Assembly: GCF_001422665.1 (NCBI RefSeq) | Contig: NZ_LMLU01000001.1 | Coordinates: 664,797 to 728,796, forward strand | Reading direction: 5' to 3' | From: Arthrobacter sp. Leaf234 | Lineage (GTDB): Bacteria; Actinomycetota; Actinomycetes; Actinomycetales; Micrococcaceae | Length of the DNA stretch: 64,000 nt | Shown: one piece after another, positions 421-8,927 of the stretch | Layout of the letters: the number at the start of each line of letters is the position of its first letter | Position numbering within the stretch: position 1 is the first letter of the stretch | The notes under the pieces: model-generated | What the model was told of the DNA's origin: nothing | The model's input: the letters and a program-made list of their open reading frames with translations, nothing else | The model's database searches: none | Translations under genes and position numbers: made by a program

Positions 421-440
421 ACATTCCCCACATGGAATGT
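421..440. promoter_or_regulatory. Inverted repeat upstream of the E1 alpha gene
   Basis: ACATTCC and GGAATGT form perfect 7-bp arms around a 6-bp spacer, 24 bp before the ATG chosen at 464. A second short dyad (CCGGA...TCCGG, about 384-403) lies just upstream. AsnC/Lrp-type regulators often control such oxoacid dehydrogenase operons, but no regulator gene is visible here; the operator role is an inference. Confidence 0.35.
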
Positions 441-463
441 GCAGGTCGGATGAGGAGCTAGGG

Positions 464-1684
464 ATGAACGGCGGTCGATTGCCGACAGCGGAGTTCGAGG
501 TCGAGGAGGTCGAGCGCGCGGCGCGCACGGCGGAACTCGGGCAGGACCGTCAGGCCGAGCCGGACATGCTCCGGATCCTCGATCCGGAGGGCCGGCTGGC
601 CGACGGGATGACGGCCGGGATCGCCGGTGAGCTCGTCGACTTCGCCCCCTACCTCTCGACGTCGGACGCACCGCACCTGCTCTCGCTCTACCGGGACATG
701 TACCTGGTCCGCCGCTTCGACCAGGAGTCCACCGCCCTGCAGCGGCAGGGGCAGCTGGCCCTCTGGGTCCCCCTCACCGGTCAGGAGGCCGCCCAGATCG
801 GGTCGGGCCGCGCCATGGAGGCCCAGGACTACGCCTTCCCGACCTATCGCGAGCACGGCGTCGCGCTGACCCGCGGCGTCGAGCTGTCCGAGATCCTGCG
901 TCTCTTCCGCGGCGTGACCAACGGCGGCTGGGATCCCCGGGAGCGGAACTTCCACCTCTACACGCTGGTGCTCGCCGCGCAGTCCCTGCACGCCGTGGGC
1001 TACGCGATGGGGATCCAGCGGGACCAGCTCGCCGATCCTTCCCTGCCGCAGGCGGCATCCGTCGCCTACTTCGGCGACGGAGCCAGCTCCGAGGGCGACA
1101 TCCACGAGTCCATGGTGTTCGCGGCGTCCTTCGATGCACCCGTCGTGTTCTTCTGCCAGAACAACCAGTGGGCCATCTCCGTGCCCTCGACGGTGCAGAC
1201 GCGCGTGCCGCTGGCGAAGCGGGCCGAGGGGTACGGTTTCCCGGGCGTCCGCGTGGACGGCAACGACGTCCTCGCGGTCGAGGCCGTCACCCGCTGGGCC
1301 CTCGAGCACGCGCGGACCGGCAGGGGGCCGGTACTGATCGAGGCGTACACCTACCGCATGAGTGCGCACACCACCGCGGATGACCCGACCAAGTACCGGC
1401 TGTCCGGTGACGAGCAGGAGTGGCGGACCCGGGACCCGTTGGCCCGCCTCGAGACCTATCTGCGCTCGGCCGGACTCGCCGACGACGCCTTCTTCGAGGG
1501 GCTGGCGGACGAGGCCCGGGTCATGGCCTCGGACCTCCGGGCGGCCGTGCTGTCGATGACCGCGCCGGATCTGGAGAGCCGCTTCGCGGCCGTGTACGCC
1601 GAGCCGCACCCACTCGTGCAGGAGGAACTGCGGTTCTTCCAGCAGTACGAGTCCGGTTTCGCCGACGAAGGGAAGCACGCCTGA
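464..1684 (+). CDS. pdhA: 2-oxoacid dehydrogenase E1 component, alpha subunit
   Basis: Thiamine-diphosphate-dependent decarboxylase half of a pyruvate or branched-chain 2-oxoacid dehydrogenase (406 residues). The ThDP motif GDG...N is seen at about residues 204-235 (GDGASSEGD ... CQNNQ), followed by the MSAHTTADD phosphorylation-loop-like stretch. An upstream in-frame ATG at 407 exists, but the ATG at 464 has AGGAG six bases ahead and gives the more usual length. The stop overlaps the next start (TGATG), and the E1 beta and E2 genes follow, so the three are cotranscribed. The large N-terminal extension rich in Glu and Arg is typical of actinobacterial homologues of this clade. Substrate is uncertain: mycobacterial relatives were first called PdhABC and later shown to act on branched-chain acids. 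Confidence 0.9.
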   Translation: MNGGRLPTAEFEVEEVERAARTAELGQDRQAEPDMLRILDPEGRLADGMTAGIAGELVDFAPYLSTSDAPHLLSLYRDMYLVRRFDQESTALQRQGQLALWVPLTGQEAAQIGSGRAMEAQDYAFPTYREHGVALTRGVELSEILRLFRGVTNGGWDPRERNFHLYTLVLAAQSLHAVGYAMGIQRDQLADPSLPQAASVAYFGDGASSEGDIHESMVFAASFDAPVVFFCQNNQWAISVPSTVQTRVPLAKRAEGYGFPGVRVDGNDVLAVEAVTRWALEHARTGRGPVLIEAYTYRMSAHTTADDPTKYRLSGDEQEWRTRDPLARLETYLRSAGLADDAFFEGLADEARVMASDLRAAVLSMTAPDLESRFAAVYAEPHPLVQEELRFFQQYESGFADEGKHA

Positions 1685-2658
1685 TGGCGACCATGACCAT
1701 CGCCAGGGCGATCAACGAGGGGCTTCGCGCGTCCCTCGCGAACGATCCGAAGACCCTGCTCATGGGGGAGGACATCGGTGAGCTCGGAGGCGTGTACCGG
1801 GTCACGGACGGACTGAAGAAGGACTTCGGCGCGATGCGCGTGGTCGACTCCCCGCTCGCCGAGTCAGGGATCATCGGCACCGCGATCGGCCTCGCCCTCC
1901 GCGGCTACCGGCCCATCTGCGAGATCCAGTTCGACGGTTTCGTGTTCCCGGGGTTCAACCAGATCACCACCCAGCTCGCCAAGCTGCGCACCCGCAGCGA
2001 CGGGATGCTGAGTGCCCCCGTGGTCATCCGCATCCCTTACGGCGGTGGCATCGGCAGCGTGGAGCACCATTCGGAGTCGCCGGAGGCGCTGTTCGCCCAC
2101 ACTGCCGGCCTGCGGATCATCACGCCCTCGAATCCCCAGGACGCCTACTGGATGATCCAGCAGGCCGTCAGCTGCGAGGACCCGGTGATCGTCTTCGAGC
2201 CCAAACGGCGGTACTGGCTCAAGGGCGAGGTGGACACGGGGGCACCCGTCGGTGATCCGTTCACCGCGCACGTCCTGCGCCGTGGCACCGATGCGACGGT
2301 GGTCGCCTACGGTCCGCTGGTGCCCGTGGCGCTGGCGGCGGCCGCCGCTGCCGAGGAGGACGGGCGGAGCGTCGAGGTCATCGACCTCAGGTCCATCTCG
2401 CCGATCGATTTCGACACCGTCACCGAGTCCGTGACCCGCACCGGGCGGCTGATCGTTGCGCACGAGGCCCCGACCTTCGGCGGGATCGGCGGCGAGATCG
2501 CCGCGCGCATCTCCGAGCGTGCGTTCCTGTCCCTCGAGGCGCCCGTCATCCGTGTGGGCGGGTTCCACATGCCCTATCCGGTCGCCCGTGTGGAGGAGCA
2601 GTACCTGCCCGACATCGACCGCATCCTCGAGGCACTCGACCGTGCCTTCGCATACTGA
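1684..2658 (+). CDS. pdhB: 2-oxoacid dehydrogenase E1 component, beta subunit
   Basis: 324-residue partner of the E1 alpha subunit in the alpha2beta2 heterotetramer. It opens with MTIARAINEGL and carries LLMGEDIGELGGVYRVTDGL and DSPLAESGIIGTAIGLAL, the transketolase-like pyrimidine-binding part that activates ThDP, then a transketolase C-terminal domain (VVAYGPLVPVAL..., EVIDLRSISPID). The start overlaps the E1 alpha stop by one base, so translation is coupled. A second ATG three codons on is possible. The encoded complex makes acyl-CoA, NADH and CO2 from 2-oxoacids together with E2 and a lipoamide dehydrogenase that is not in this window. Confidence 0.93.
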   Translation: MATMTIARAINEGLRASLANDPKTLLMGEDIGELGGVYRVTDGLKKDFGAMRVVDSPLAESGIIGTAIGLALRGYRPICEIQFDGFVFPGFNQITTQLAKLRTRSDGMLSAPVVIRIPYGGGIGSVEHHSESPEALFAHTAGLRIITPSNPQDAYWMIQQAVSCEDPVIVFEPKRRYWLKGEVDTGAPVGDPFTAHVLRRGTDATVVAYGPLVPVALAAAAAAEEDGRSVEVIDLRSISPIDFDTVTESVTRTGRLIVAHEAPTFGGIGGEIAARISERAFLSLEAPVIRVGGFHMPYPVARVEEQYLPDIDRILEALDRAFAY

Positions 2659-2667
2659 AGGACCACC

Positions 2668-4446
2668 ATGACGCTGAAGACGTTCAACCTGCCCGACGTC
2701 GGTGAAGGCCTCACCGAGGCGGAGATCGTGCAGTGGAGGGTGGCGCCGGGCGCAGCCGTGTCCGTCAACGACATCATCTGCGAGATCGAGACCGCGAAGT
2801 CCCTCGTCGAGCTCTCCTCGCCCTACGAGGGCACGGTCTCCGAGTTGCTGGTGCCGGAGGGCGAGACGATCGAGGTCGGGACGCCGATCATCTCCGTGGA
2901 GGACGGCACCGGACCGTCCGGCAGAGGCAGCAGTGGCGGCAGTGGCGGCTCCGCCGTGACTGCGCCGACGTCCGGGGCGGCGCCTCGGCCCGACGGTTCG
3001 GACGGCCGCGACGCGCAGGTACCTACAGACGAGCCCGCCGGGAGCGAGGCACGCCCGGCCACCTCGACCGAGGGCCAGGTCCCCGTGCCGGAGATGCCGG
3101 GAGAACTGGCAGGCCCGCAGGCAGGAGCCCTTCGCGGCGATGGCTCCGCAACGGTCACCGGAGGTCACTCCGCTGCCGGCGGTGAGGCCGCGTCCGGCGC
3201 AGGCCCCGCAGCAACGCGAGGGGACACGGCACCAGGATCGGGTTCCGCGGATCCGGTGCCCGGCCCCCTCGTCGGGACGGGCCCGAAGGCCGACGCCGTC
3301 AAACGCCGCCCCCGTAAGTCACCGTCCGGCCCGGCCCGGGCCGTGTCCGCCGCATCGGCGGCCGGCCATCCGGGCAGGAGCGATGACCGGGCGGCGGGAA
3401 GCTCCCAGCAGCCCGCCGACGGGCAGTCCACCGTGACGGTCGCGCCCGCACCGCCGGCCTCAGCCGGCCCGGGGGCGACAGATCGACAGCAGGCGCCCAG
3501 CGCGACGCCGGTGCCGTCCGGCAGCGGCAGCGCGCAGGGCCGGGTGAACCCGCTCAACCAGCTCATCAATCGCGTCCTGGCGAAGCCACCGGTCCGGAAG
3601 GCGGCGCGGGACCTCGGCATCAACCTCGCCGACGTCCCGGCCACCGGATCCGCCGGCGAGGTCACGAAGCAGGACCTCATGAGCTACCAGTCGCAGCGTG
3701 ACGCGGAGCAGGACGGCGCCGACTCCTTCTGGTCGGAGCGCAAGCTCCTCGGGGGCGACCGCATCGAGCGCATCCCGGTCAAGGGCGTCCGCAAGGCCAC
3801 CGCGAGGGCGATGGTCCAGAGCGCCTTCACCGCGCCGCACGTCAGCATCTTCGTGGACGTCGACGCATCGCGCACCATGGAGTTCGTGAAGCGGCTCAAG
3901 GCCAGCCGGGACTTCGAGGGCATCAAGGTCTCGCCCCTGCTGATCCTCGCGAAGGCGGTCATCTGGGCTGCTGCACGGAACCCCTCCGTCAACGCGACCT
4001 GGTCCGATGACGAGATCCTCGTCAAGCACTTCATGAACCTCGGGATCGCCGCCGCCACGCCACGGGGCCTCATGGTGCCGAACATCAAGGATGCGCAGGA
4101 TCTCTCCCTGAAGGAACTCGCACTGGCCCTCAACGAGCTGGCGACGACGGCGCGGGCGGGCAGGACGCAGCCTGCCCAGATGCAGGGCGGCACGCTGACC
4201 GTCACGAACATCGGCGCCCTCGGCATCGACACGGGAACGCCCATCATCAATCCGGGGGAAGTGGCGATCGTGGCCTTCGGCACCATCAAGCAGAAACCCT
4301 GGGTGCTCGACGGCGAGGTGATCCCCCGGTGGATCACGACCCTCGGGGGGTCCTTCGACCACCGCGTGGTGGACGGGGATCTCAGTGCCCGCTTCATGGC
4401 GGACGTCGCCTCGATCCTCGAGGAACCTGCGCTGCTCCTCGACTAG
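2668..4446 (+). CDS. pdhC: Dihydrolipoamide acyltransferase (E2) with very long linker
   Basis: Core acyltransferase of the complex, 592 residues. Order of parts: one lipoyl domain at about 1-80 with the lipoylated Lys in [11 protein letters not shown]; a low-complexity Gly/Ala/Pro/Ser/Thr linker at about 85-290; a peripheral-subunit-binding domain at about 291-342 ([20 protein letters not shown]...); and the CoA-dependent catalytic domain from about 370 to the end, with the active-site [10 protein letters not shown] near residue 560. Related E2 proteins with one lipoyl domain are usually 400-500 residues, so the linker of about 200 residues is unusual. Nine bases separate it from the E1 beta stop, with GAAGGA as ribosome-binding site. 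Confidence 0.93.
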
Positions 4447-4455
4447 GGTTGGCGC

Positions 4456-4680
4456 ATGAACCAGGAGTTGCCGGGGCAGGATCCCGGCCGTCGACCGCGC
4501 GCCCGGTACCCGTTGAGCAGGCTGCTGCTGGTCGTGGTCGTCGGCTTCATCGCCTCGAGCCTCCTGCAACTCGCCTTTCCGGGGCTGGACACGATCGCCC
4601 GCCTGTCCATCCTGGTGATCGTCGCCGCGCTGATCTCGATCACGGTGACGTTCCGCCAGCAGAGGCGCCCACCGCGCTGA
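4456..4680 (+). CDS. Small two-helix membrane protein, unknown function
   Basis: A 74-residue frame 10 bases after the E2 gene. A basic Pro/Arg-rich N-terminus of about 20 residues is followed by two hydrophobic segments (LLLVVVVGFIASSLLQLAF and LSILVIVAALISITVTF) and a short basic tail, so it should sit in the membrane as a hairpin. I do not recognise a family. It is probably transcribed with the dehydrogenase operon. The ribosome-binding site is weak, so expression is less certain than for its neighbours. Confidence 0.55.
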   Translation: MNQELPGQDPGRRPRARYPLSRLLLVVVVGFIASSLLQLAFPGLDTIARLSILVIVAALISITVTFRQQRRPPR

Positions 4681-4683
4681 CCT

Positions 4684-5982
4684 CTAGGGCGCCCGGAGAC
4701 CGGTGATGGCACCGCGGAGGATCGGCGCGAGACGCCGGACGCCCTCGACGATGTCCTCGGGGGACACGGCGCTGAACGCCAGGCGCAGCTTGTTCGACGG
4801 CTCGTCCGACGGCGTGAAGGCGGCACCCGGGATGAAGACGACGCCGGCGTCGATGGCGGTGTAGAGCAGGGGATAGGTGTCGATCCCCTCGGGCAGGGTG
4901 ACCCAGACGAAGAAGCCGCCGTCGGGCGTGGTCCAGTGCACGCCGTCCGGCAGCTCGGCGGCGAGGGCGCCGAGCATGGCCTCGCACCGTTCGCGGTAGA
5001 GGCCGCGCATGGACTGCAGGTGGCCGCGCCAGTCGTACTCCGTGAGATAGGCGGTGACGAGCATCTGCGTGAGCGGCGACGGACAGAGCACCACCGCCTC
5101 GCAGGCCAGGTAGAACCGGCGGTAGAGGTGCCTGGGCACCAGCGCCCAGCCCAGGCGCACACCGGGCGCGAAGATCTTGGAGAACGAGCCGAGGTAGATG
5201 ACGTCCTCGGGGTTGGCCGCGCGCAGGGGTTCGAGGGGCTCGCCGTCGAAGCGGAGCATGCCGTAGGGGTTGTCCTCGAGGACCAGGATCGTGTGCGCGC
5301 GGCAGATGTCGACGACGCGCTGGCGGCGGTCGGCGGCCAGGGTGATGCCGCTCGGGTTGTTGAAGCTGGGGATCGTGTAGAGCAGCTTGATGGTCCGCCC
5401 CTCCGCCTCGAGCTCGCCGATGATGCGCTCGAGTTCGTCCGGGATCAGTCCGTCCTCGTCCATCGGGACGGTGACGACGTCCACCTCGTAGGCCTCGAAG
5501 GTGTTGAGGGCGCCGACGTACGTGGGGTCCTCGCAGAGGATCACGTCTCCGGGATCGCAGAAGACCTTGGCTGCGACGTCCTGGGCAGATTGCGATCCGG
5601 TGGTGATGACGATGTCGTCGGCACTGGCGCCCACGATCCCCTCGGCGGCCATGACGTCGCAGACGAGAGAGCGCAGTTCCGCCATGCCCTGCCCGCCGCC
5701 GTACTGCAGCGCCTCCAGGCCGTGCTCGGCGATGATCTTCTGGGCCGTACGGCCGAGGTCCTCGAGGGGGAGGGACCTCAGGTAGGGGCTGCCGCCGGCC
5801 AGGGAGACGAGGCCGGGGCGGATCGAGATGTCGAAGACGTCGCGGACGGCCGACTGCTTGATGTTCGCCGCGCGCACGGAGAAGAGCGGATCGTGCCGTG
5901 CTGCGGAGTCGACGGCGCGTTCGAGGGCTGCTTCCGTCTCGGCGGGCAGGAGGTCGGCGGAGGCTTCGCTGGAGGACGTCAC
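4684..5982 (-). CDS. PLP-dependent aminotransferase, fold type I (LysN/MocR-type enzyme)
   Basis: 432-residue class I/II aminotransferase without a GntR head. Visible landmarks are ITTGSQSAQD at about 126 (PLP phosphate site), YTIPSFNNPSG at about 202-212, DNPYG at 237-241 with the Asp that contacts the pyridine nitrogen, and SFSKIFAPGVRLG with the Schiff-base Lys269. Relatives act on 2-aminoadipate, aromatic or branched-chain amino acids; an amino-acid-to-oxoacid reaction would suit the oxoacid dehydrogenase encoded next door on the opposite strand. It faces the small membrane protein gene with only 3 bp between the ends. Upstream is a regulator gene on the same strand, 63 bp away. Confidence 0.85.
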   Translation of the reverse strand: MTSSSEASADLLPAETEAALERAVDSAARHDPLFSVRAANIKQSAVRDVFDISIRPGLVSLAGGSPYLRSLPLEDLGRTAQKIIAEHGLEALQYGGGQGMAELRSLVCDVMAAEGIVGASADDIVITTGSQSAQDVAAKVFCDPGDVILCEDPTYVGALNTFEAYEVDVVTVPMDEDGLIPDELERIIGELEAEGRTIKLLYTIPSFNNPSGITLAADRRQRVVDICRAHTILVLEDNPYGMLRFDGEPLEPLRAANPEDVIYLGSFSKIFAPGVRLGWALVPRHLYRRFYLACEAVVLCPSPLTQMLVTAYLTEYDWRGHLQSMRGLYRERCEAMLGALAAELPDGVHWTTPDGGFFVWVTLPEGIDTYPLLYTAIDAGVVFIPGAAFTPSDEPSNKLRLAFSAVSPEDIVEGVRRLAPILRGAITGLRAP

Positions 5983-5999
5983 GCCCAGAGTCTAGGCGC

Positions 6000-6030
6000 G
6001 TGTTGACCATCAGGCAACAGGTGTTGACCA
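6000..6030. promoter_or_regulatory. Paired direct repeats upstream of the aminotransferase
   Basis: GTGTTGACCA occurs twice (6000-6009 and 6021-6030), two helical turns apart, in the 63-bp gap before the aminotransferase start. Read on the coding strand this is TGGTCAACAC twice. The spacing fits a dimeric regulator binding one face of the DNA. The protein is unknown. Confidence 0.35.
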
Positions 6031-6045
6031 GCGGAACGTAGGCTG

Positions 6046-7014
6046 TCAGATCCAGCCGGCGTCGCGGGCCTTCAGGGCGGCCTGGAAACGGCTGTCCGCG
6101 CGCAGGGTCTCGAGCATCCAGGCGATGTGCCGCCTGCACGTCCGGACGTTGATGTCCAGCCGCCGTGCGATCGACTCGTCGGAGAGTCCGCTGGCGAGTC
6201 CCTGGATGATCGAGCGCTGCAGGCTGCTGAGCGGGGACTCCACCTCCTCGGGTGCCAGGAACGCCTGGCTGATCTCCCAGGCGATCTCGAACAGCTGCGT
6301 GAAGATGTTGATGAGGCTGTGGTCCCGGATCACCAGCGCCGCCTTGTCGTCGCGCGTCAGCTGACGGCCCACCAGCGCCAGCTTCTCGTCGAAGATCAGC
6401 ATGCGCAGCGGGATGAACGGGAGGACTCCGAACTCGCCCCCGCCGGCGGCGATGGCCTCGACGGCCTTCCGTGTCGGGACGTGGTCCCTCGTGCTCGTGT
6501 CGTACAGGGTGCGGCGGCGTACGCCCTTCTCCAGGAGTTCGAGGTCCTTCCGCACGCTCTCCTCGTGGACGTCCGCCGTCGAGCCCTGTCCCGGCTGCGC
6601 GATGTAGACCTTCTCCGTGACATCCCGGCCGTAGTCGATGAGCACGCGGTGGATGAGGTGCGGGTCCTCGAGTGTCTCCACCGAGGTGCTCGCGAGGACG
6701 TGCTTGCGCGCATCGAGGAAGGTGGGGAGGAGGCTCGAGAGTTCGCGCCGCTGGCTGCTGATGCGTGCCTTCAGGTCCTGCAGGGTGCGCTCGTCGGCGT
6801 CGACCAGATCGGCGAGGGCGACATCGGGGGACACCGCGACGAGGCCGTCGTCGCTGCCAGCCTGAGGGCTGAGCAGCCGGCGCCGGGACAGCTCGCCGAT
6901 GGCCTCGTCGATCCGGCGCAGTGTCAGGCCCAGCTGCTCCGACACCTCGGCACGGGTCCAGCCGGGATGACCCACCGCATAGCGATAGACCTCCAGCGCC
7001 GTGGCATCCAGCAT
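6046..7014 (-). CDS. TrmB/LuxR-type transcriptional regulator of the peptide cassette
   Basis: 322-residue regulator. The N-terminus (about 1-60) is a winged-helix TrmB-like domain (ALEVYRYAVGHPGWTRAEVSEQLGLTLRRIDEAIGELSRR); the middle (about 60-250) is a sensing-like alpha/beta domain; the C-terminus (about 255-322) is a LuxR-type helix-turn-helix (LSSLQRSIIQGLASGLSDESIARRLDINVRTCRRHIAWML). The ATG at 7014 is preceded by GGGAGGG; a longer frame reaching 7392 would run across the opposite promoter and is rejected. It is divergent from a small secreted-looking peptide gene 376 bp away, which suggests that it controls that gene and may respond to the peptide. That link is inferred from position only. 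Confidence 0.85.
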   Translation of the reverse strand: MLDATALEVYRYAVGHPGWTRAEVSEQLGLTLRRIDEAIGELSRRRLLSPQAGSDDGLVAVSPDVALADLVDADERTLQDLKARISSQRRELSSLLPTFLDARKHVLASTSVETLEDPHLIHRVLIDYGRDVTEKVYIAQPGQGSTADVHEESVRKDLELLEKGVRRRTLYDTSTRDHVPTRKAVEAIAAGGGEFGVLPFIPLRMLIFDEKLALVGRQLTRDDKAALVIRDHSLINIFTQLFEIAWEISQAFLAPEEVESPLSSLQRSIIQGLASGLSDESIARRLDINVRTCRRHIAWMLETLRADSRFQAALKARDAGWI

Positions 7015-7065
7015 GAACCCTCCCTGTCGTCCCCGGTCATGAGCATTCAGCACGGTGCGAAAAAC

Positions 7066-7091
7066 ATGACATGTCCAGTTAATGACACATC
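7066..7091. promoter_or_regulatory. Direct repeat ATGACATGTC / ATGACACATC, candidate regulator site
   Basis: ATGACATGTC (7066-7075) and ATGACACATC (7082-7091) are offset by 16 bp, about 50 bp upstream of the TrmB/LuxR regulator start. The first copy includes the perfect 8-bp palindrome GACATGTC. Candidate operator for autoregulation of the adjacent regulator. Confidence 0.35.
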
Positions 7092-7124
7092 TGTCGGGCT
7101 GGCAATCCACCGGCCCCGTCCGAG

Positions 7125-7154
7125 CCGCGGATCCGCGTCGTTCCGCGGATCCGC
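7125..7154. repeat. Two copies of palindromic CCGCGGATCCGC
   Basis: CCGCGGATCCGC occurs at 7125-7136 and again at 7143-7154, offset by 18 bp. Each contains the 10-bp palindrome GCGGATCCGC. They lie in the middle of the divergent intergenic region, so they may be an operator pair or a hairpin-forming element. Confidence 0.4.
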
Positions 7155-7390
7155 CGTCCCCGCGATCCCTGTGAGCACGCCTGGGCGTGGTGTCCGCATC
7201 CGCTCGGCGTCCGGTTGGCGTCATGTCCGCAAACGGCCACCCGTACTGCTGGACACTACCCTCTGCGCACCGACATTCTGATGGAGCCGGTTCACCGGGG
7301 TCCTGACCGGGATGCCGATGGATACGGGCACTGCGCATCCGCAGTGCGGACCAGTTCGACCTCCCGGGGAACGGGCAAGGAAGGATCGCC

Positions 7391-7531
7391 ATGAAGAAGG
7401 TACTCGGCGCAACTGCAGGCCTGATGATCCTGGTCGGAGCCGTTGTGCCGGCAGGTCAGACCATCAGCGCGGCAAGCTGGGACTGGCCCAAGGCCTCGGT
7501 CTCGGCCAGCAGCTGGGACTGGCCCAAGTAG
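7391..7531 (+). CDS. Secreted repeat peptide with two SWDWPK motifs (putative precursor or signal)
   Basis: A 46-residue peptide. Residues 1-3 are MKK, about 4-20 are hydrophobic (VLGATAGLMILVGAVVP), and a signal-peptidase-like site follows TISA at residue 27. The remaining 19 residues carry ASWDWPK at 28-34 and SSWDWPK at 40-46, ending the protein with the second copy. Each copy is encoded by the same 18 bases. The ribosome-binding site AAGGAAGGA is strong, so this is a real gene although it is very short. It is divergent from a LuxR-type regulator and followed by a SpaB-C-like enzyme. It could be an exported autoinducer, or a precursor in which W/D residues are modified; the sequence does not decide. 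I know no described family with this motif. Confidence 0.75.
   Translation: MKKVLGATAGLMILVGAVVPAGQTISAASWDWPKASVSASSWDWPK
7475..7528 (+). repeat. 18-bp perfect direct repeat encoding SWDWPK
   Basis: The 18 bases coding for SWDWPK occur at 7475-7492 and 7511-7528, offset by exactly 36 bp (12 codons). All six codons are identical, which suggests a recent duplication or strong constraint at the DNA level. Confidence 0.9.
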
Positions 7532-7618
7532 GAACACGGCGGCGCCGGACTAGAGCCCGGGCGCCGCTCCCATAGCCCGCCCCAGCGGGGGTGATCACAG
7601 ACCCTGAAGGAGAGAGCC

Positions 7619-8587
7619 ATGAGTCAGCTGACAGCCGTGCGAACCGCCTCACGGACGGTCGTCAGCACTCAGTGGTGGCATCTCTCCCTCTCGACGGGTG
7701 GCTTCGATGTAGCGGACGGCATCATCGAAGAGCTGGTCACCCCGCTGGTGGCGCAGGCGCATGCGCTCGGCGCCAAACGCTGGTACTTCACGCGGTGCGA
7801 GGACGCATCCACCGGAGTGGTCAGCCAGATCAGGCTCAGCATCCACGCGCACCCCCGGGTCCTCGAGAGGCTCCGCACCTTCCAGCGGGCGCTCCAGGCC
7901 CGCAGTGCGCAGGCCCTGCCGCTGCTGGCGGTCCGGCAGCACTACACGGCTCCCGCGAGCAACACCTACTACTCGGGCGGCCAGGAGATGGCCGACCCCC
8001 AGCTCGAGGCGAACCTCGTGAAGTACGGCGGTGTGGAGGGACTCCACCTGGCCGAGGAGGTCTTCGAACTCAGCTCCGAGCTGGCGATCTGGGGCAACCA
8101 GCGGTTCCCCCGCATGCAGGGCCGTTCGGCGCTCGGCGCCCTGGTCCTGTTCGACGCCGCCCAGAGCATGATGCGAGGGCCGCGCTCGGCCGGCTGGCAG
8201 GATCGCCGCCGCCTGACCTGGGACTTCTACTGGGACAGCCACCTGCGGACCTGCACCGCCGACGTCGGGCCGCGCGCTCCGGCAGTCCGCGACGCCATGG
8301 CGACGCAGGTCTCCTCGAAGGCGACCGGCTTCCATGCCCTGATGGCGGCGACGGCATCCGAGTCCGCGGTGCACAACTGGCGACGGCGCTGGTACCGGGC
8401 GCTCGACACCTACCTCTACCGCGCCGACAAGGTGCGGGTCAGCCGCAGCGCCCAGCACCTCACGGTCTACCAGGCGCACATGACGCTCAACCGCCTCGGA
8501 TTCGTCCCCCGCGAGGAGGCCGCCCTCGGTCTCTACGCGCGGAGCTGGAAGCCGCAGGTGGACCTCATTGCACCGCGACAGCCCTGA
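7619..8587 (+). CDS. Free-standing SpaB-C / thiopeptide-type biosynthesis domain protein
   Basis: 322 residues, almost entirely one domain. The opening QWWHLSLSTG, the block GAKRWYFTRCEDASTGVVSQIRLSIHAHP near residues 48-80 and LVKYGGVEGLHLAEEVFELSSELAIW near 134-160 match the C-terminal domain of class I lanthipeptide dehydratases (SpaB_C, thiopeptide-type bacteriocin biosynthesis). In full LanB enzymes this domain eliminates glutamate from glutamylated Ser/Thr; here no tRNA-dependent glutamylation domain is fused or encoded nearby. The start has AAGGAGAG eight bases ahead and lies 87 bp after the repeat peptide, so the two are probably cotranscribed. It may modify or bind that peptide, but the mature peptide has Ser residues without a visible partner enzyme, so function is open. 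Confidence 0.85.
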   Translation: MSQLTAVRTASRTVVSTQWWHLSLSTGGFDVADGIIEELVTPLVAQAHALGAKRWYFTRCEDASTGVVSQIRLSIHAHPRVLERLRTFQRALQARSAQALPLLAVRQHYTAPASNTYYSGGQEMADPQLEANLVKYGGVEGLHLAEEVFELSSELAIWGNQRFPRMQGRSALGALVLFDAAQSMMRGPRSAGWQDRRRLTWDFYWDSHLRTCTADVGPRAPAVRDAMATQVSSKATGFHALMAATASESAVHNWRRRWYRALDTYLYRADKVRVSRSAQHLTVYQAHMTLNRLGFVPREEAALGLYARSWKPQVDLIAPRQP

Positions 8588-8629
8588 CGGTCACGGCCGC
8601 CCAGGACCCATCGAGCGAAGGACTGCACC

Positions 8630-8821
8630 ATGAATGCCAGGAACACCATCGTGCTCGCCATGGACCAGGACGATCTCTCCGAGGCGCTCGGCTGCTCCTC
8701 CGAGGCGGTCCAGTCCATGCAGAACGACGGCGTGCTCGAATCGCAGGGTCAGCTGTGGGAGATCGGACCTGCGCGGGACTACCTCAGGGACGCGGCCTGG
8801 GCGGACAGCCTCTGGCACTGA
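8630..8821 (+). CDS. Small acidic protein of the peptide cassette, unknown function
   Basis: 63 residues, acidic, no signal peptide or membrane segment. The stretch MDQDDLSEALGCSSEAVQSMQNDGVLE looks helical and could be a small helix-turn-helix-like fold, and the end is Trp-rich (AAWADSLWH). I recognise no family. It follows the SpaB-C-like gene by 42 bp with GAAGGA before the ATG, and a perfect terminator hairpin follows. This makes it the last gene of a three-gene operon with the WDW peptide. A role as chaperone, recognition element or immunity factor is possible but unsupported. Confidence 0.7.
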   Translation: MNARNTIVLAMDQDDLSEALGCSSEAVQSMQNDGVLESQGQLWEIGPARDYLRDAAWADSLWH

Positions 8822-8852
8822 CACCCGGTCACCGGAACGCTCCGGTGCACGC

Positions 8853-8890
8853 ACGACGACGCCGGCGCATCCCTGCGCCGGCGTCGTCGT
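8853..8890. terminator. Perfect 16-bp hairpin, bidirectional terminator
   Basis: Arms 8853-8868 and 8875-8890 are fully complementary around a 6-base loop, between the end of the peptide cassette and the convergent FMN reductase gene. No long T-run follows, as is common in high-GC actinobacteria. A weaker 7-bp hairpin lies at 8830-8847. Confidence 0.8.
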
Positions 8891-8927
8891 GTTCCGATCC
8901 GGGTATGCCCGGCCGAGGGTAGGAGCC

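Follow-up and report, generated by a model that had tools for sequence, protein, structure and literature searches.

A conserved locus of a lone SpaB-C protein and a Trp-x-Trp peptide in Arthrobacter, possibly a stripped-down RiPP system

The locus and its Trp-x-Trp peptide

The locus described here is located in a 64,000-nucleotide stretch of the Arthrobacter sp. Leaf234 genome (contig NZ_LMLU01000001.1, positions 664,797 to 728,796 of the forward strand), which we refer to as the window and whose own numbering is used throughout. A gene for a TrmB/LuxR-type regulator of 322 amino acids on the minus strand (6046..7014) is divergent from 3 genes on the plus strand, which encode a peptide of 46 amino acids (7391..7531), a SpaB-C (Lant_dehydr_C) protein of 322 amino acids that stands alone (7619..8587), and a small protein of 63 amino acids (8630..8821). 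These 4 genes had been named in the original prediction, which was made from the letters of the window, and all of them were found where it placed them. It had also proposed a candidate peptide system that includes a free-standing SpaB-C protein, to be judged by whether the gene order recurs and the peptide is conserved in relatives. This proposal is borne out by the recurrence across loci: the gene order was present in many genomes, and the peptide was kept.

A SpaB-C match was identified in 43 of the 97 genomes searched, including all 38 genomes of the same genus (the window's among them), 4 from other genera of the family and 1 from another family. A scan of named genomes yielded 67 loci, which were sorted into 55 primary loci with a lone SpaB-C gene, 10 second copies, and 2 loci with a LanB partner (Planobispora L123 and Planomonospora L124). 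The enzyme encoded in the window was 98% identical to that of Arthrobacter bussei. The second copies were found in 10 Arthrobacter genomes that also contained a primary locus (L101, L103, L104, L105, L106, L107, L109, L118, L120, and L121). The regulator, the small protein and the operator were found at none of the 10, and no W-x-W peptide was accepted at any of them, a search that a peptide lacking the motif would escape; a single pattern match at L101, which runs into the start of the enzyme gene, was judged to be due to chance, so that the zero count for the peptide is a judgement. It was also noted that a record titled Vibrio cholerae strain 35D (WNZI01000025.1, L068) carries an Arthrobacter locus, and this assembly is probably mislabelled or contaminated.

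The peptide encoded in the window contains the sequence SWDWPK at residues 29 to 34 and 41 to 46 (nucleotides 7475-7492 and 7511-7528), and gave no match in Pfam or NCBIfam. The motif [S/N]W[D/E]WPK was present in all 38 same-genus loci (one locus per genome, window included), with one copy in 10 loci, two in 23 and three in 5, in total 71 copies, and it formed the C-terminal end of the peptide in 37 of them, the exception being L015, which is on the same contig as L066. The codons for Asp/Glu, Pro, and Lys in the motif varied synonymously (for Pro: CCC 37, CCG 29, CCA 3, and CCT 2), as expected if those amino acids matter. An origin by chance or as an artefact of a single genome was rejected on the basis of the presence of the motif in each same-genus locus, its copy number and the synonymous codon changes. 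No Cys was present in the peptides listed from same-genus loci.

A W/Y-x-W peptide was encoded upstream of the SpaB-C gene in all 55 primary named loci, with the peptide stop codon located 77 to 155 nucleotides upstream of the enzyme gene among the loci listed. A short conserved precursor gene thus adjoins the gene for a predicted modifying enzyme in each primary locus, which is the arrangement of ribosomally synthesised and post-translationally modified peptides (RiPPs) in the wide sense. In Arthrobacter sp. RIT-PI-e (L066), the peptide had one internal SWDWPK, 14 residues from its end, and no terminal motif, and the small protein was not found; this locus may be decaying.

The peptides ranged in length from 7 residues (MKSWDWF) to more than 55 and contained up to four repeats. 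Those with SWDWPK or NWEWPK repeats represent one group of forms. Among the others are the peptide of L074 with four VWDWPQQ repeats, the peptides of the A. crystallopoietes group ending in ...AWDW or ...IWDW, that of A. castelli (...IWGWPQKT), and those of the A. citreus group (...SWEWF), some of which span only 16 to 17 codons. The form MKSWDWF was identified in five loci (L082, L084-L087), where its seven codons follow a AAGGGGGA ribosome site, while the peptide was MTKVWDWI in L097, MEATFSQILRSGGIYDWPTVA in Haematomicrobium, and MTASAARRIWAWPESWPILGRK in the distant genome G517 (L199), where it was encoded between the regulator and the enzyme. The residue preceding the W/Y-x-W core was S, N, V, I or A, and there was no adjacent Ser or Thr in AWDW, VWDWI and IYDWP.

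Start codons and signal peptides were assigned by eye. The window peptide has a signal-peptide-like N-terminus by this assignment, and its earlier description as secreted-looking holds for many of the peptides but not for several relatives, in which the motif was located in frames of 7 to 33 residues without a signal peptide. The peptide of L016 had three repeats and no signal peptide, provided that its start codon was chosen correctly. It was also noted by eye that the ribosome site of the peptide gene in L088-L093, L097, L108, L112, and L122, GAGGGG or nearly so, is complementary to a CCCCTC just past the stop codon, which can alternatively pair with a downstream GGGG run; this pairing is a possible self-limiting switch.

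The small protein was encoded in 53 of the 55 primary loci. It gave only weak helix-turn-helix (HTH) matches in Pfam and NCBIfam, and an alignment of 13 members showed a variable N-terminus and a best-conserved part consisting of the C-terminal sequence RDAAWAxxxW. A perfect 18-bp inverted repeat with a 4-nucleotide loop is located 3' of the operon (8852..8891, no strand assigned). It had been called a perfect terminator, which is correct for the stem and loop, but no T run follows it and it was absent from the output of the terminator scan. A possible hairpin is located right behind the peptide stop codon on the plus strand (7538..7568), and its z-score of -0.84 is within chance of shuffled sequences. 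Hairpins past the stop codon with z-scores below -1.5 were identified in 28 of 52 distinct relatives, compared with 9 of 52 coding controls; the test covered 52 of 54 loci, as L066 gave no peptide and one other was dropped for being a duplicate or for its short length. Bacteriocin operons usually contain a hairpin between the precursor and enzyme genes, and by analogy the hairpin here may keep the peptide in excess over the enzyme.

The lone SpaB-C protein

SpaB-C proteins are usually regarded either as pyridine synthases or as a part of a two-part dehydratase. The protein encoded in the window matched PF14028 with an E-value of 4.6e-16 and 60.2 bits, compared with a cut-off of 24.4, which places it among the LanB elimination domains, and it was the only PF14028 protein in the window genome. 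Its predicted structure (mean predicted local distance difference test, pLDDT, 85.5; predicted template modelling score, pTM, 0.83) was matched by Foldseek to MibB (5ehk), TbtD (5wa4), PbtD (5w98), TsrL (7cww), and NisB (6m7y). For the glutamylating partner domain Lant_dehydr_N (PF04738), 37 of the 38 same-genus genomes, including the window genome, lacked a match at E <= 0.001, and in the sole genome with a match (G024) it was located on another contig than the SpaB-C locus.

In the available part of PMC4979651, the NisB mutants R786A, R826A, and H961A are described as adding glutamate and not eliminating it. The available part of PMC4341554 reports an inactive H961A mutant and only a mild effect of R784A, and a figure legend there, in conflict with PMC4979651, presents Arg826 and Arg786 as important for glutamylation; we adopted the residue roles given in that part of PMC4979651 over those in the legend. 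The equivalent positions were compared in an alignment from which L017 and L043-L048 were removed and in which L068 was never included, with frames shorter than 280 amino acids (105 left) and then identical sequences (79 left) removed; no enzyme was extracted for L035 in one extraction step. Among the 79 distinct sequences, the position equivalent to R786 was occupied by R in 33, S in 20, H in 15, K in 6, N in 4, and Q in 1, that equivalent to R826 by K in 50, R in 21, T in 5, and A in 3, and that equivalent to H961 by H in 72, R in 4, Q in 2, and M in 1. At the R786 position, the window protein has S, the members of its group have S, H or N, and most other proteins have R or K.

The residue at this position covaried with the end of the peptide. 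It was S, H or N in all 25 aligned loci with peptides ending in WPK, and R or K in all 26 loci with other W/Y-x-W endings (25 named loci and G517). The comparison was made without L068 and without the frames shorter than 280 amino acids (L098, L112, and L122), and the peptide strings for L123 and L124 were false matches within the LanB reading frame. The pattern is consistent with the end of the peptide lying in that pocket.

The original prediction had noted that SpaB-C normally carries out the elimination step in a LanB dehydratase. This usual job is unlikely here because the glutamylating partner is missing from 37 of the 38 genomes, no Ser or Thr is conserved beside the motif, and the proteins of the window's group have another residue in place of an elimination arginine, and LanB-type dehydration was rejected on these grounds. 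For the thiopeptide pyridine synthases, the window protein gave no match to NF045556 (TbtD_PbtD) up to an E-value of 1, and its score of 34.7 bits against TIGR03891 was under the cut-off of 48.45. The SpaB-C set is thus very likely neither a dehydratase half nor a pyridine synthase, and since defining features of both were looked for and not found, we claim no membership in either.

The regulator and its operator

The regulator encoded in the window consists of an N-terminal HTH, a coiled coil, a PLD-like TrmB sensor domain and a C-terminal LuxR (GerE) HTH. By sequence, the LuxR-type HTH was clear (PF00196, E-value 5.1e-8), and the match to TrmB was weak (E-value 0.02). The top Foldseek matches of the predicted structure (pLDDT 82.5, pTM 0.50) were TrmBL2 (5bpi, E-value 2.5e-14), TrmB (3qph, 5.3e-8), and the PLD protein Nuc (1byr, 2.2e-6), with low whole-chain TM-scores of about 0.3 to 0.4. 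The model thus points to a TrmB fold with a PLD-like effector domain, at low TM-scores and a pTM of 0.50, in agreement with the TrmB/LuxR type assigned previously.

A divergent regulator gene was present in 52 of the 55 primary named loci. In the remaining three (L094, L097, and L112), which belong to the A. gandavensis group, a peptide ending in KVWDWI, the SpaB-C gene and the small protein were kept, and no adjacent regulator gene was found. The type of regulator is widespread, with 140 of 296 genomes of the class and 53 of 197 of the family containing one. Of 20 loci surrounding distant regulators, only 2 (L198 and L199) had a SpaB-C gene nearby, and a W-x-W frame between regulator and enzyme was found only in L199, for which reason the idea that regulators of this type are widely paired with W-x-W peptides was rejected. 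Other small frames ending in W-x-W at these 20 loci were judged by eye to be due to chance. In L201, from another family, a 6-codon TTG frame encoding MSWSWY (7338-7358, plus strand) is located on the side divergent from the TrmB/LuxR regulator gene, with no SpaB-C gene nearby, and may likewise be a chance occurrence.

An inverted repeat, TGTCC-N22-GGACA, is located upstream of the peptide gene in the window (7223..7255, plus strand), and the hexamer TGGACA in its right half (7250-7255) resembles a -35 box. A candidate -10 box, CATTCT, was read from the sequence 18 nucleotides past this hexamer (7274..7279, plus strand), and similar hexamers were seen by eye 17 to 18 nucleotides past the -35-like half in several relatives. 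When spacers of 8 to 30 nucleotides were allowed, TGTCY..RGACA was present upstream in 38 of the 67 named loci, and the spacer was exactly 22 nucleotides in 35; the strict form of the element was found in 35 of the 55 primary loci and nowhere else among the named loci. A fuller pattern gave a single match in the window genome with up to 3 mismatches allowed, and a looser exact pattern gave exactly one match in 23 of 24 same-genus genomes (24 of the 38 were tested, the window genome included), 0 matches in 14 genomes of other families, and 0 matches when reversed as a control. The 32-bp operator-like element is thus single-copy in the window genome and in 22 of the 23 same-genus relatives tested, which leaves the regulator without an obvious wider target, and these sequence counts suggest that its own operon is probably the single target that it reaches through such a site.

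The locus was also present in Arthrobacter sp. UMCV2 (L062). In the available part of PMC9659744, LuxR-type genes are counted in this strain and several are described as induced by dimethylhexadecylamine; that part gives no locus tag that would link the induced genes to this regulator, and the string 'CVO76' occurs in it twice, for two discarded genes.

Origin and interpretation

Among the 141 loci scanned, many of which are about 4 kb in size, Lant_dehydr_N homologs were found only in L042, L043, L123, L124, L198, and L206-L209, and L211, a separate LanB contig of G024, gave a weak match. The SpaB-C relatives outside the lone group adjoin such homologs, and in a 43-row tree a branch supported at 96/96 separated the 33 lone proteins from the rest. 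One of the partnered clusters (L198, G475:C1:443000-456000, positions 421-6967), from the same family, encodes a thiocillin-family precursor (NF033482, E-value 1.7e-10), an M50 protease, Lant_dehydr_N, SpaB-C, a membrane protein and a TrmB/LuxR regulator that was 39% identical to the nearest of the 12 regulators in an alignment (A2). In the simplest history, a cluster of this kind would have shed its LanB half, its protease and its former precursor and gained a new peptide, in a direction that we infer from the sequences.

We propose, with a probability of roughly one half, that the locus is a stripped-down RiPP system in which SpaB-C has been repurposed to bind or modify the Trp-x-Trp peptide, which would itself be the product. 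This reading draws on direct observations, namely the conservation of the peptide, the missing partner, the kinship with LanB-partnered proteins and the unique promoter element. The steps from history to activation, contact, modification, export and purpose can be pictured only conditionally. The ancestral cluster would have combined a TrmB/LuxR regulator and a protease with a LanB dehydratase in split form; its glutamylating half, protease and original precursor would have been lost, and the retained SpaB-C and regulator re-fitted to a new peptide with a W-x-W core at or near its C-terminus. The regulator would most likely act as an activator of the operon, through the TGTCC-N22-GGACA element that overlaps the -35 box. 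The peptide, with one to four motif copies per precursor, would be the output and be made in excess, with SpaB-C in lower amount. SpaB-C might take the Trp-x-Trp tail into its old active-site cleft and modify or escort it by cofactor-free chemistry other than dehydration.

A more specific version is correspondingly more tentative. It holds that a LanB elimination domain which lost its partner may be the only enzyme in a new kind of peptide pathway and may act on a C-terminal aromatic-x-Trp motif, that its substrates may in some lineages have been reduced to leaderless genes of 7 to 8 codons (MKSWDWF and MTKVWDWI), and that the pathway may be core to Arthrobacter, with a one-target TrmB/LuxR switch and an undescribed modification on Trp or at the C-terminus.

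Several observations weigh against the proposal of a repurposed SpaB-C. The match between the R786 position and the peptide end corresponds to about one step on the tree and may reflect descent, not contact. L066, in which the terminal motif is lost and which was counted apart, has Ser at this position, and among the 10 second copies, where no local peptide was accepted, the residue is Arg in eight, His in L120 and Gln in L121. The enzyme frame was interrupted in four named loci (L068, L098, L112, and L122; in L112 it ends after 113 amino acids), so either SpaB-C is dispensable or those four assemblies contain errors. The tree was midpoint-rooted for drawing only, some of its long rows were placed unsurely, and one of its 10 partnered rows (L210) had no Lant_dehydr_N match nearby. 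Furthermore, the regulator was absent in 3 of the 55 primary loci and the strict operator in 20, the promoter scan found no consensus sigma-70 site in the region, and the occurrence of peptides both with and without a signal peptide is awkward for a single export route.

The original prediction had considered a signalling peptide with its sensor. In such a quorum-sensing system, the peptide would be exported, trimmed to SWDWPK-like pieces and re-imported or read at the surface, where it would switch the TrmB/LuxR regulator, with SpaB-C maturing the signal. The divergent position of the regulator in most primary loci agrees with this, as do the multi-copy repeats, many of which are preceded by A-x-A-like residues (by eye), and the short aromatic ends reminiscent of the Rgg and ComR pheromones. 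The only operator copy detected in the window genome is nonetheless that of this operon, and relatives have one per genome, in searches confined to this type of site; since these gave no further operator, quorum sensing as the only role is less likely, and the idea has been weakened. The leaderless forms of 7 to 16 residues also have no visible export route, the unit itself contains no transporter or peptidase gene, and the regulator type is common in the class and seldom accompanied by SpaB-C. We consider this explanation rather unlikely. A non-catalytic pair, in which SpaB-C would be a dead enzyme kept as a peptide binder (a receptor, chaperone or immunity protein) and the small protein a second ligand, would account for the eroded Arg786 site and for the Trp-containing tail by which the small protein, like the peptide, is conserved at its end. 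It appears improbable in view of the His at the H961 position in 72 of the 79 distinct sequences and the Lys or Arg at the R826 position in 71, which hint at retained chemistry.

A similarly low probability applies to an attenuation leader, in which a ribosome slowed at the Trp codons, or by the nascent W-x-W(P), would prevent the hairpin from closing, so that transcription continues into SpaB-C, and the encoded peptide would have no function. Two Trp codons near the stop, the hairpin directly behind it in many relatives and frames of down to seven codons agree with such a mechanism. The signal-peptide-like N-termini and the identical repeats, of which there are up to four, make it less likely, being unexpected in a leader, and Asp/Glu, Pro and Lys are maintained through synonymous codons; the window hairpin is also no better than shuffled sequences, no T run or antiterminator was shown, and we know of no tie between SpaB-C and tryptophan metabolism. 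Very improbable, and close to refuted, is an ordinary class I lanthipeptide or thiopeptide remnant, in which SpaB-C would eliminate glutamate in trans from Ser or Thr activated by another enzyme. By fold and family the protein belongs with the LanB elimination domains and the pyridine synthases, and the equivalents of His961 and Arg826 (the latter mostly Lys/Arg) are largely retained, but Lant_dehydr_N is absent from nearly all of the same-genus genomes, the AWDW, VWDWI and IYDWP peptides have no Ser or Thr beside the motif, and the proteins of the window's group no longer have the Arg786 equivalent.

Known systems share single traits with the proposed module. The split LanB elimination half of NisB and MibB has the same Pfam domain and fold, and the equivalents of His961 and Arg826 are mostly kept in the lone proteins, but these differ in the absent glutamylation partner (37/38 genomes), in having no conserved Ser/Thr by the motif, and in the loss of the Arg786 equivalent in the window's group. 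The pyridine synthases TbtD/PbtD and TsrL share the stand-alone SpaB-C fold of 300 to 350 amino acids (Foldseek E-values 1.5e-7 to 1.3e-5, TM-scores about 0.5 to 0.6) and provide an example of a SpaB-C protein that catalyses a different reaction without a cofactor. Their substrates are peptides in which a LanB-type pair has helped to form dehydroalanine, whereas no such pair is present here and the pyridine synthase models did not recognise the window protein. The clusters of L198 and L124 contain related SpaB-C proteins, and that of L198 also a related regulator, but they retain Lant_dehydr_N and the M50 protease, and L198 the thiocillin-family precursor; a matching regulator was found in neither L123 nor L124.

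In the microcin C system, the gene for the MccA heptapeptide lies beside an enzyme gene, and a gene for a 7-residue peptide adjoins an enzyme gene in both systems; the lone unit differs in having no MccB-like adenylating enzyme and another enzyme fold, and its 7-residue forms are the extreme of a size range. Rgg-SHP and ComR-XIP likewise combine a regulator with a short peptide with a Trp-rich end, whereas the regulator here is of the TrmB/LuxR and not the RRNPP type, the operator is found at one operon only, and a SpaB-C enzyme is present.

The original prediction knew of no described system with this layout, and a full-text literature search gave no published description of it among the matches listed and no paper with the strings SWDWPK, WDWPK or NWEWPK. 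We file the locus as a variant of RiPP-like systems for which no published description was found. It would represent a conserved SpaB-C set of soil bacteria outside both usual roles, with its likely substrate encoded one gene away, at times in only seven residues, and a biosynthetic cluster seemingly worn down to a minimal module. Any new peptide chemistry would be cheap to probe with synthetic peptides, and a class of tiny precursor genes, likely overlooked by gene finders, would be added.

Beyond the four genes, a gene for a pyridoxal phosphate-dependent class I/II aminotransferase (PF00155; 4684-5982, minus strand) begins 63 bp past the regulator stop codon on the same strand, and may be co-transcribed with the regulator gene. 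A similar aminotransferase gene was noted by eye in the same position in L085.

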